A DNA stretch of 64,000 nucleotides from the NCBI RefSeq assembly GCF_006874645.1, contig NZ_CP030082.1, forward strand, positions 3,100,001-3,164,000, given 5' to 3'. Made by a program: the position numbers and the translations under genes. Source of the stretch: Bdellovibrio sp. ZAP7 (GTDB lineage Bacteria; Bdellovibrionota; Bdellovibrionia; Bdellovibrionales; Bdellovibrionaceae). The stretch's first letter is position 1. Every line of letters begins with the position of its first letter. The notes beneath the pieces are model-generated. The model saw only the letters and a list, made by a program, of their open reading frames with translations, did no database searches and was not told the DNA's origin. Shown here in pieces: positions 17,142 through 50,338 of this stretch.

Positions 17142-17693
17142 TTGAAACAACAAACTTTTTCTGGAATGCATACGCATTGGAAATATAGACACTGTCATGG
17201 AGGATCTTTGCGGAAATCTCTAAAGGGCCGAGGTGCGCGCCCGCTTTCCAGTAAGGAACCGATTCACCTGGTTTTTAAAGTGAATAAAACGGCGGTTCAC
17301 GGTGGACTGCGCAGTCCTCGGACATTTTCTCTGATCAATAATCTACTGAGAAAATATTCGCGTAAATTCTTTGTCAGTGTTGAGCAACACTCTGTTCAAA
17401 AAGATCACATCCATATTCTTTTGCGCGGAGGAAAACGTTCTCAGCTACAGAGCTTTTTTAGAGTGTTGGCTGGGCAATTCGCGCAGAGATTGACCGATAC
17501 CTTCAGCACCAAACATGAGGGAGAAAAAATCTGGAAGCATCGGCCATTTTCTCGTGTCGTCAAAGGCTACAGGGCGTACAGGATTGTTCGAGACTATATT
17601 CAGCTCAATGAGTGTGAGACTAAGGGCCGTCCCTATTCAAAATCGAGATTGCGGGGATTGACTCAAGAACAGCTCATAGAGCTTTGGAACTAG
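17142..17693 (+). CDS. REP-associated tyrosine transposase (RAYT, Y1/HUH family)
   Basis: A 183-aa protein. DHIHILL (HUH motif, about residues 88-94) and a single Tyr in the helix YRIVRDYIQLNE (about 146-156) are the catalytic features of IS200/IS605-type single-strand transposases. The N-terminal GRGARPLSSKEPIHLVFKV is typical of the RAYT subgroup. TTG at 17142 is preferred because GGAG lies 6 nt before it; a TTG at 17124, GTG at 17130 and ATG at 17166 are also in frame. RAYTs are usually single-copy domesticated genes flanked by REP palindromes, and repeat cores lie just upstream. All motifs look intact. Confidence 0.88.
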   Translation: MKQQTFSGMHTHWKYRHCHGGSLRKSLKGRGARPLSSKEPIHLVFKVNKTAVHGGLRSPRTFSLINNLLRKYSRKFFVSVEQHSVQKDHIHILLRGGKRSQLQSFFRVLAGQFAQRLTDTFSTKHEGEKIWKHRPFSRVVKGYRAYRIVRDYIQLNECETKGRPYSKSRLRGLTQEQLIELWN

Positions 17694-41149: not shown

Positions 41150-42130
41150 ATGTTGAAGAAAATTATTTTAACTTTGAGCGTATTAAGCCTGGCTGCTTGC
41201 GCGTTCAACAATGACGAGTCAAGCGCTAACAAAAGAAACAAAAAGCTAGCTGAAGAAAATGCTCGCGCTGCCGCGATCTTTTCCAAAGTGGAAGGTTCCT
41301 ACCAAGGAAACTTGATCCGTGAAAACGGTGCCACTGAAGTTATTGAAATTAAGCTGGTTGGACTTTCAGTAGAAACTGGCGCCAAGAACGACGATGGCTC
41401 CGCAATCAACCAATACCTTCAAACAGCGGTATACACTCGTATCTCCCCGTCATCTGCATCCATGACTGGCTTGTCAGCCAATTATACTGCTGAACTGGGA
41501 ACACTGACGATTACGAACCCTGCTAAAGATATCAATAACGATGACGTTCATTCAATTACGGCAACTATTAAAGACGGCATCATGAATGGTGTGGTTGTAT
41601 CTAAAGCTGGCATCATCGGTCGCATGTCTTTGAAATTCGTCATCGGTGGTTCATCGAACGGTGGCAACGGTTCTGACGAACAATACTATGACCGTCTTCG
41701 CCAAAAATACGCGAAGATCTCTGGTATGTACTATGGTTGTGTGATCACAACGAAGGACATGACTCAAAGAGGTGTTCCGAACTACAAAGCGAAAATGACT
41801 TTGTCCGTGTTCGAAGAGAAAGTTGTCGGAAAAGACAAAACAACTCGTCCCACTTTGGTTGGAACATTCCTAAGAAATGACGACCCAGACGAGTTCTTAA
41901 GAGCGGCTCTTAGCGGCGAATACCGCGACGACTTGGTTCCTGCAGCCCTTAACCTTGACGGTAAGTACACGGGCCAAACAAATGGCTATGTGACTGTATT
42001 CAAAGGCACTCTTTCTGCAGACGGCGACTATGTTGCAGAGTACTCCAGCAACAACTTCGGTTTTGAAGGCAAAATGTACTTCAAACGCGGCAAAACATAC
42101 CCAGCGAAATGCGCCAACGTTTCCCGCTAA
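41150..42130 (+). CDS. Lipoprotein, unknown
   Basis: A 326-aa protein with the lipobox LAAC (Cys 17). The mature part is Ser/Asn/Asp-rich, has strand-like segments and ends with a lone Cys in PAKCANVSR. No domain is recognised. It is the third gene of the barrel-TolC-lipoprotein operon and is followed by a terminator. It may be an accessory of the outer-membrane channel. Confidence 0.75.
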   Translation: MLKKIILTLSVLSLAACAFNNDESSANKRNKKLAEENARAAAIFSKVEGSYQGNLIRENGATEVIEIKLVGLSVETGAKNDDGSAINQYLQTAVYTRISPSSASMTGLSANYTAELGTLTITNPAKDINNDDVHSITATIKDGIMNGVVVSKAGIIGRMSLKFVIGGSSNGGNGSDEQYYDRLRQKYAKISGMYYGCVITTKDMTQRGVPNYKAKMTLSVFEEKVVGKDKTTRPTLVGTFLRNDDPDEFLRAALSGEYRDDLVPAALNLDGKYTGQTNGYVTVFKGTLSADGDYVAEYSSNNFGFEGKMYFKRGKTYPAKCANVSR

Positions 42131-42158
42131 TATCGAAAAGATCTAAAGCCTAAAAACA

Positions 42159-42187
42159 AAAACCCAGCTCTCAACAAGCTGGGTTTT
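42159..42187 (+). terminator. Terminator after the lipoprotein gene
   Basis: AACCCAGCT pairs with AGCTGGGTT around a 7-nt loop, with A5 before and T6 after. Confidence 0.88.
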
Positions 42188-42212
42188 TTATTTTCCCAAA
42201 TTCTCCCAGCAA

Positions 42213-42430
42213 AATTAGAAGCGAAATCCTAAGACAAAATTCCGATCTGCGGTGAAGGCGGCAAGCCAAAGCCTGCATGCAGCCGACCTCCGTGGGCGCC
42301 ACGACGGCGCGCACTCGCCGCAGGCGAGCCACGGCTGAGCCCGGACGGCGTGTCGGCGGAACTGCAGGCTTTGGCTTGTCGCCTTCACCGCAGTACCGAG
42401 AACCAAGTTGTTAGGATTTGCCTTCTAATT
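42213..42430. repeat. Long inverted-repeat element 2 with internal hairpins
   Basis: Inner arms of 31 nt (42247-42277 and 42363-42393) are inverted copies with one mismatch. Outer arms of 20 nt (42213-42232 and 42411-42430) match with two mismatches, and the right outer arm contains the stop codon of the ABC-F gene. Inside are CTCGCC/GGCGAG (42314-42328), CGTGG/CCACG (42291-42303) and a competing CAGCCG/CGGCTG pair. The interior is clearly more GC-rich than the neighbours. It lies between convergent genes. Confidence 0.75.
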
Positions 42431-44210
42431 GCGACCATCGGTCGTAGAGGCGTTCGATCTCTTTTTGCAGAGTCGCGATCTCGGTGTAAAGCTCTTGCAC
42501 CTTCTTGGCGTTGCTAGCGACTTCAGGAAGCATGCTTTGGGTTTGCGCGGTCTGAAGCTTTTCCTCAAGACCCGCAATCGTCGCTTCCATATTCTCCAGC
42601 TCGAACTTTTCTTTGAAGCTTAGCTTTTTAGGTTTCCCGGAAGCGGCTTTCGCCTCTTGCTTTTCTTCCTGTTTTTTAGTGGCTTCGATCTCTTTTAGAT
42701 CCTCAAACCACTCTTCCCATTGCAGGAATCCGGCAAAACGTTCCATCGTCATATTGCCATCTGGATTTTTATGAAGAGCGATGATGTCTTTCGCCACCTG
42801 ATCCATAAAGTAACGGTCATGGGTTACCAAAATCACGGCACCATTGAATTCGCGCAAAGATTCTTCCAATACCGCCAGAGTTTGCACGTCCAAGTCATTC
42901 GTTGGCTCATCCAGAATCAAAACTTGCGCTTCATTCAACATCAATTGAGCGATACGCAGACGGGCTTGCTCCCCACCTGACAGTTTTTCGACTGGCATAT
43001 CCATTTGTTGGCGATTGAATTGGAAGCGCTCCAAATAGCTGCGGGCATAGACGTAAGAACCTTGATAGTGAACATAGTCACCATCAGGACAGATATTTTT
43101 CAAAACGGATTGCTGGGGATTCAAAGTCTCGCGGTTTTGTTCAAAGTACGCGACTTTCAAATTCTCGGCGCGCTTGACCTCGCCCATGTCCGGCTGTTCT
43201 TGCCCAAGCATGATGCGAATCAAAGTGGACTTACCACTCCCGTTATCCCCCAACAAAGCCATGCGGGTTTTTGGATTTATCAAGTAAGTAAAATCCTTAA
43301 ACAACAGACGGTCATCATAAGCTTTGGTGATATGAGAAAGCTCGATCAGCTTTTGAGGATTGCGATCGGCATCTTTAAATTCAATTTTTACTGTGCGGTT
43401 GGCGTTTTTCGAAACCAAGTCCGACACGTCATCTTTCAATGTGTGGGCACGATCGATACGGGCTTTTTGCTTCGTCAAACGGGCCTTCGCCCCACGACGT
43501 AGCCACTCGGTCTCACGACGAAGAGTGTTCTTCATCGTCAATTCTTTGGCTTCTTGACCCGCCATCATCAATTCTTTGGATTCCACATAGGCCGAATAAT
43601 CGCCCAAGGTCACAAACAGATAGTTCGGATTTTTAGGATCCAAATCAAAGATCTTGTTCGTCACACGCTGTAAGAACAAGCGGTCATGGGTGATAATCAA
43701 AGTTGCAAATTGAGCTTTGGCCAAAAATTCTTCCAGCCACATGATACTTGTTACGTCCAAGTGATTCGTCGGCTCATCCAGCAACAAAAGCTGCGGATTG
43801 CGCACAAGTTCGCGAGCCAAAGCCACGCGTTTTCTCCAACCACCGGAAAGATCTTCCACCAGGAACGTGTCACCGAACTGAGAAAGCTCCAAACGAGCCA
43901 TCCACTCATAAGCAGGTCCGATCACTTCGTTGTAATCGTTGTCCGCCATAATCGCATCCAGGATCGAAACGCCAGGATCAAAGGAAGGCGTTTGTTCCAG
44001 GTAACCAATCGTCAAACCTTTGTTCATGGTGACTTCACCACCGTCAGGCTTCATACGACCTGCGATGATTTTTAGAAGCGTAGATTTACCAGCCCCATTC
44101 GGTCCGACTAAACCAATGCGGTCGCCTTCATCAATCCCCAGACTGACGTTTTTAAATAGAGTTTTTCCCGCGAATGATTTTTCGAGCTTATAGGTACTAA
44201 GTAATGGCAT
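42411..44210 (-). CDS. ABC-F family ATPase (Uup-like)
   Basis: A 599-aa soluble protein with two ABC domains and no membrane helix. Walker A GPNGAGKST (about 37-45) and GDNGSGKST (second half), signatures LSGGWRKRVALARELV and LSGGEQARLRIAQLM, Walker B LLLLDEPTNHLD and VLILDEPTNDLD, and the ABC-F linker between the halves (about 235-305, RRETEWLRRGAKARLTKQK) are present. The C-terminal coiled coil (530-599) is typical of Uup. ABC-F proteins act on the ribosomal E site. The last 20 nt of the gene lie in an inverted-repeat arm. Confidence 0.93.
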   Translation of the reverse strand: MPLLSTYKLEKSFAGKTLFKNVSLGIDEGDRIGLVGPNGAGKSTLLKIIAGRMKPDGGEVTMNKGLTIGYLEQTPSFDPGVSILDAIMADNDYNEVIGPAYEWMARLELSQFGDTFLVEDLSGGWRKRVALARELVRNPQLLLLDEPTNHLDVTSIMWLEEFLAKAQFATLIITHDRLFLQRVTNKIFDLDPKNPNYLFVTLGDYSAYVESKELMMAGQEAKELTMKNTLRRETEWLRRGAKARLTKQKARIDRAHTLKDDVSDLVSKNANRTVKIEFKDADRNPQKLIELSHITKAYDDRLLFKDFTYLINPKTRMALLGDNGSGKSTLIRIMLGQEQPDMGEVKRAENLKVAYFEQNRETLNPQQSVLKNICPDGDYVHYQGSYVYARSYLERFQFNRQQMDMPVEKLSGGEQARLRIAQLMLNEAQVLILDEPTNDLDVQTLAVLEESLREFNGAVILVTHDRYFMDQVAKDIIALHKNPDGNMTMERFAGFLQWEEWFEDLKEIEATKKQEEKQEAKAASGKPKKLSFKEKFELENMEATIAGLEEKLQTAQTQSMLPEVASNAKKVQELYTEIATLQKEIERLYDRWSQLEGKS

Positions 44211-50085: not shown

Positions 50086-50116
50086 AGCCCTGGTGGAAAC
50101 ACCGGGGCTTTTTTTT
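50086..50116 (+). terminator. Terminator after fusA
   Basis: The stem AGCCCTGGTG/CACCGGGGCT has ten pairs including one G-T, loop GAAA and T8. It starts 25 nt after the stop. Confidence 0.92.
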
Positions 50117-50151
50117 GCCTTTTTCCCGGGGAATCGGGATCGAGTCGGTGC

Positions 50152-50270
50152 CCATTGAAGAAGGCTGTTCTTCGTGCGGCACGCCTTCCAGGCTCAACGG
50201 TGCCCGCCTATGGCGGGTTCGCGCATCCATGCGCCACCGAGGCCGCACTGCGCACAGCCTTCTTCAATGG
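50152..50270. repeat. Long inverted-repeat element 3 with internal hairpins
   Basis: The 29-nt arms at 50152-50180 and 50242-50270 share a perfect outer 17 bp (CCATTGAAGAAGGCTGT) and inner GTGCGGC, with mismatches between. Inside are CCCGCC/GGCGGG (50203-50217) and GCGCAT/ATGCGC (50221-50234). It occupies the convergent gap between fusA and the CAP gene. The rest of this 387-nt gap holds the fusA terminator, a further stem AATCCCCG/CGGGGATT and a small GTTCGC/GCGAAC hairpin at 50345-50359. No gene is supported there. Confidence 0.72.
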
Positions 50271-50311
50271 TCCCCGCCTCGCACGACTTTTTCGGTAAAA
50301 AGGTAAAATAC

Positions 50312-50338
50312 AATCCCCGGTGTTTGCGGGGATTTTGG
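50312..50338. terminator. Hairpin with terminator features near the CAP gene
   Basis: AATCCCCG pairs with CGGGGATT around a 7-nt loop and is followed by TTTTGGTT on the plus strand. It is 110 nt beyond the CAP stop, so it is a backup terminator at best. Confidence 0.45.

Follow-up and report, generated by a model that had tools for sequence, protein, structure and literature searches.

A dispersed palindromic repeat of Bdellovibrio with a conserved tip and locus-specific stems, one copy of which abuts the 3' end of an ABC-F gene

The stretch of Bdellovibrio sp. ZAP7 DNA analyzed here (64,000 nucleotides, hereafter the window) contains a 218-nt palindrome situated between two convergent genes, past a separate bidirectional terminator, and the end of an ABC-F gene lies within one of its arms. 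This raises the question of what kind of element the palindrome is, and how the end of a gene came to be present on both of its sides. The gene was named from its two ABC domains and an earlier note on this locus, that is, from a reading of the protein rather than an HMM search. The features referred to below are the following:

41150–42130, plus strand: convergent upstream gene, 326 aa
42158–42188, no strand: bidirectional terminator-like hairpin, lying outside the element in the gap separating the convergent genes
42213–42430, plus strand (the F strand of the core is the plus strand): whole capped-palindrome element, 218 bp
42213–42232, no strand: left outer arm, a reverse copy (18/20) of the ABC-F 3' end
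42233–42246, no strand: internal loop separating the outer and inner stems, left side, from the fold
42247–42277, no strand: left inner arm, 31 nt, found elsewhere in the genome only as its partner arm
42279–42360, plus strand: conserved core or tip, 82 nt, branched into a closing stem P1, a stem P2 and hairpins P3, P4 and P5
42363–42393, no strand: right inner arm
42394–42410, no strand: right side of the same internal loop, containing ACCGAGAACC
42411–42430, minus strand: right outer arm, native sequence comprising the final codons of the ABC-F gene and its stop
42411–44210, minus strand: ABC-F ATPase gene, 599 aa, its 3' end abutted by the element
50097–50325, minus strand: second copy of the family within the window, with its core at 50172–50250 (minus) and 84-nt arms (71%)

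A repeat search recovered both arm pairs that the earlier note had described, namely inner arms at 42247–42277 and 42363–42393 (31 nt, 97%, one mismatch), and outer arms at 42213–42232 and 42411–42430 (20 nt, 90%, two mismatches). The 218 nt fold into a single hairpin on both strands, with z-scores of -10.6 and -12.0 relative to dinucleotide shuffles, and none of 200 such shuffles matched this folding. Moreover, 30 inverted 12-mer seeds were observed in the window, versus 0–6 in simulated sequence. The palindrome is far above the chance level. The presence of convergent genes, with terminator-like signals nearby, could nevertheless suggest that the similarity is fortuitous or that the element is a large bidirectional terminator, but such a reading is hardly credible: the terminator of the locus is the separate hairpin at 42158–42188, the element lacks the T run that comes after the GC-rich stem in Rho-independent terminators, and the existence of a family of copies with a conserved tip already refutes it.

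That family was missed in the first description of the locus, which did correctly recognize a GC-rich hairpin core, the conserved part of a repeat present throughout the genus. In a DNA search, the central 75–80 nt recurred at seven further places in its own genome, and in many genomes of the genus. A covariance model (R1), built from 22 cores, matched 42279–42360 with 90.4 bits (E 2.9e-18, the E-values of this model being rough), and detected 32 copies in this genome (G000), as well as copies in 22 of the 24 Bdellovibrio genus genomes. The arms of the second copy in the window are conserved in the relatives G022 and G021. Outside the genus, a class-wide search of 144 genomes returned only a few copies (in G050, G073 and G098); these few copies, in three other genera, follow the same plan, mostly with near-perfect 30–40-bp stems. 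Further pattern matches outside Bdellovibrio, retrieved from a genome-collection search (L214–L218), were weak (20–26 bits) and were treated as chance. The 21-nt tip pattern was absent from viral contigs, and Rfam gave no match above the gathering score in the window, nor any match for 14 loci in permissive scans (E up to 5).

Regarding the ABC-F gene, its stop codon (complement of 42411–42413) and last codons (LEGKS) do lie inside the right outer arm, as had been claimed. It had also been proposed that the element supplied or replaced the 3' end of the gene, which proved incorrect, as the same LEGKS-stop ending is found in the element-bearing genomes G000 and G021 and in their element-free relatives G022 and G011. 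Since relatives lacking the element share this gene end, the gene was there first and the element came later; the left outer arm, complementary to the last 20 nt of the gene at 18 of 20 positions, is the copy. In three further genomes (G010, G005 and G019), the upstream end is like that of G000 and the terminator is present, with the element absent at this locus. The other proposal of the earlier note, an inverted duplication, was supported: the ABC-F end is present in reverse as the left outer arm, the arms at this site vary jointly between G000 and G021, with both outer-stem arms of G021 differing in step from those of G000, and other copies of the family also carry reverse copies of neighbouring gene ends. 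The same ABC-F end without a left arm had been put forward as a sign of chance similarity; this arrangement does occur, but the family-wide pattern excludes chance. In addition, the outward readings ending in LGFRF-stop and LGFAF-stop exist as described, but their assignment to the C terminus of a beta-barrel protein was ruled out, because both come from antisense frames in the ABC-F tail or its copy, with only 69 and 29 open codons ahead of the stop.

Across the family, left-right inverted matches located more than 55 nt from the tip exceeded the 99% null level in 19 of 143 copies, where approximately 1.4 would be expected, and the outer inverted matches of 10 copies exceeded the null maximum. 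Three of the strongest outer matches contain 17–21 nt of the coding end of the neighbouring gene. At the L070/L011 locus, the last codons and stop of the gene are repeated backwards, and no such copy is present in G021, which lacks the element there.

The tip, of about 75–82 nt, is composed of a closing stem, a second stem and three hairpins. In an alignment fitted to the model, which is biased towards pairing but not towards double over single change, 98.1% of 2514 tip cells are paired, and 471 cells have changed on both sides versus 7 on one, a result not reached by any of 500 shuffles. Two AYGGAY-type hairpin loops are found in some copies, which in this respect resemble the TwoAYGGAY RNA motif of Rfam; identity with that motif was rejected, as the 14 loci scanned at E up to 5 gave no match. 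A few cores (L127:484–630, L132:1366–1514, L083 and L085) have extra insertions between model positions, those of L127 and L132 being alike (CAAAAATAGCAGGATGCTATTTTTG...GGGCAGGAGCCC) and perhaps representing another small repeat placed inside the tip.

The stems have a median length of 46 bp (5–95% range, 31–90 bp) and are 84% complementary. Most loci have stems unrelated to one another, and this includes loci with identical tips: under tips identical over approximately 68 nt, at different loci of the same genome, stem identity is 0.45–0.65, the level for random stems being 0.50 (sd 0.07). In a search of their own genome, the arms of G000 matched only themselves, so capture from elsewhere in the genome was rejected, as was an origin from known phages, which gave no match to these arms. 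A reverse transcriptase or DGR origin was likewise discarded, PF00078 being above cut-off in only 3 of the 24 genus genomes. Stems common to several copies are found in G012 and G073, so stems are able to travel with the tip. By eye, the stems of one clade are closed by a base motif, GATTTG/CAAATC-CGTCGCTCGAAGC, and those of the other share a recurrent mid-arm motif in which G.A mismatches are conserved; at the ABC-F locus, ACCGAGAACC in 42394–42410 resembles, also by eye, the base motif ACCGAGAACYAAG of several copies. Furthermore, stem mismatches favour one strand, F: in 111 non-redundant copies, 172 A.G, 11 C.T, 90 G.T and 52 A.C mismatches were counted, with A.G exceeding C.T in 59 copies and the reverse in 4 (bootstrap A.G/C.T ratio, 8–31).

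We then focused on how arms differ between relatives at orthologous sites. The stem was unchanged at L028/L051, L058/L090, L075/L195/L209 and L082/L194, and had changed stepwise, paired on both sides, at L071/L094/L105. At L066/L199, L081/L158, L070/L011 and L056/L115, both arms were replaced between similar flanks, and L117/L121 represents a one-sided intermediate (right arm 100%, left arm 73–76%). In alignable orthologues, 59 columns, a number inflated by some register shift, had changed on both sides while remaining Watson-Crick, versus 37 that had changed on one. This concerted change, the copies of host sequence and the covariation of the tip suggest that fold-back template switching writes and rewrites the arms. 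This mechanism can generate hairpins and maintain them, as proposed for RNA stems from reconstructed histories (PMC8794818), and it is established in bacteria (PMC7202029). According to the same sources, the process creates and corrects inverted repeats with simultaneous compensatory changes; here, both such changes and reverse copies of flanking DNA were found. Quasipalindrome mutation is, however, a process and not an element, whereas the Bdellovibrio case seems tied to one conserved tip across the whole genus.

Overall, we consider it reasonably probable that the locus carries one member of a palindromic repeat family that is dispersed and probably mobile, in which fold-back template switching keeps the arms complementary and extends them into host genes, and in which the folding of one strand is selected. 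During DNA synthesis, the growing strand would turn back at the tip, with one arm being the template for the other, and copying would sometimes continue into the host gene, leaving an inverted copy of the gene end on the far side. Such switching would explain the reverse copies of host gene ends, the paired changes without intermediates and the extension of arms. As it is strand-neutral, it leaves the G.A bias and the mid-arm motif unexplained, and selection was added for that reason: selection on the F strand to fold, whether as RNA or as single-stranded DNA, would keep G.A and G.T and remove C.T and A.C. Nevertheless, the source of wholly new stem sequence is not accounted for by template switching.

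The strand-asymmetric mismatches (G.A and G.U over C.U and A.C), the strong covariation of the tip and the conserved motifs inside otherwise variable stems could also be expected of a structured non-coding RNA family, in which transcription of the F strand would yield a long hairpin RNA whose branched tip is conserved and whose stem drifts freely while ordinary compensatory selection preserves its pairing. We regard this as unlikely, since the tip is almost without G-U or one-sided states (7 versus 471 double changes), which is unusual for RNA drift, since both arms are replaced as blocks between close relatives, and since neither a consensus promoter, in a local scan, nor an Rfam match was found. 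It is less likely still that some system, encoded by the host or by the element, actively writes self-complementary stems (about 25–30 bp) anew between the conserved tip and a conserved base, giving each site its own hairpin, which might serve as a folded single strand or as a source of site-specific small RNAs.

Copies are extragenic and lie mostly between convergent or tandem genes. In 90 of about 126 cases, the gene on the 3' side of F has its end facing the element (p 1.6e-6), a statistic that treats copies as independent, although some are orthologous, and that takes gene ends from a simple ORF caller and not from annotation. About one third of the copies break this rule, which weighs against the explanation that we favour. 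Two copies share one gap, 135–640 bp apart and always diverging, at 13 fetched loci (L054, L037, L055, L024, L042, L097, L107, L116, L120, L127, L088, L132 and L139, the latter being the place of L024), and 30 copies of G000 scored by eye against replication direction divide approximately 18 to 12. At the smpB locus (named from a reading of the protein, not an HMM search), a few bases separate the neighbouring stops in G022 and G021, with approximately 200 bp more in G000, which points to a recent insertion; by eye, comparison with the empty site shows an insertion with no clear short direct repeat (target-site duplication). The stem of this G000 copy was not matched in any other copy sampled, an unexpected outcome of simple copy-and-paste and a further difficulty for a mobile repeat with switching arms. 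If, on the other hand, nothing were mobile and gene conversion homogenized the tips of old, independently diverged hairpins, identical tips on unrelated stems within one genome would be readily understood; yet this is very improbable, given the empty sites in close relatives, where gene ends are nearly flush (smpB in G022 and G021), and the orthologous sites with different tip subfamilies (L070/L011). In G021, a seemingly decayed remnant of the element (L162) was observed at the site of L077.

Among known systems, integron attC sites combine conserved blocks with a variable self-complementary stem, as does the Bdellovibrio element, which, unlike them, is conserved at its tip and not at its ends, and for which no cassette array was seen. 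Small mobile repeats of bacteria, namely ERIC, Correia, RUP and MITEs, have been reviewed (PMC2229807) and are, like the present element, short, non-coding, palindromic and dispersed. In MITEs, terminal inverted repeats are conserved, whereas here the center is conserved and the arms vary, the outer arms being locus-specific and sometimes host coding sequence. No earlier description of such a Bdellovibrio repeat was found in the open-access literature; the apparently undescribed element adds a dispersed repeat to this predatory bacterium and, from its position at gene 3' ends, can enter transcripts. How long perfect stems originate and change on two sides is an open question, and the more than 130 related hairpins of closely related species, with shared tips, unshared stems, replacements of both arms and one-sided intermediates, form a natural series in which both are directly testable.

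Finally, the REP/BIME repeats associated with RAYT proteins are alike in being palindromes dispersed outside genes, many of them located at gene 3' ends, with Y1 transposases in the same genomes; they differ in that the Bdellovibrio element is about 200 bp long, has a branched conserved tip and locus-specific stems, and does not lie beside Y1 genes. Conservation throughout the palindrome was not observed, as arms are unrelated between most copies. A REP-like or MITE-like non-autonomous transposon, moved in trans by Y1 (RAYT-like) transposases and with arms of ordinary decayed element sequence, would agree with the extragenic copies, mostly between convergent or tandem genes, with the empty sites, and with the Y1_Tnp genes found in 21 of the 24 genus genomes (10 in G000). 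Even so, it appears improbable: no R1 match (up to E 5) was found at 20 tested Y1 loci of G000 and G022, no correlation was seen between the numbers of Y1 genes and of copies (rho 0.27, p 0.20), 6–17 copies are present even in genomes where Y1 was not detected, and identical tips do not share stems. With neither adjacency nor number correlation, linkage to Y1 transposases was rejected, which also leaves the repeat shaped by template switching, as we propose it, with no mover found. As separate observations, a Y1_Tnp (RAYT-like) domain is present in the window at 17334–17603, with a 12-mer-seeded inverted repeat nearby (16909/17037), and another repeat of approximately 110 nt (L177:1430–1659 and L142) was encountered close to Y1 genes in G000 and also flanking an element in G012.
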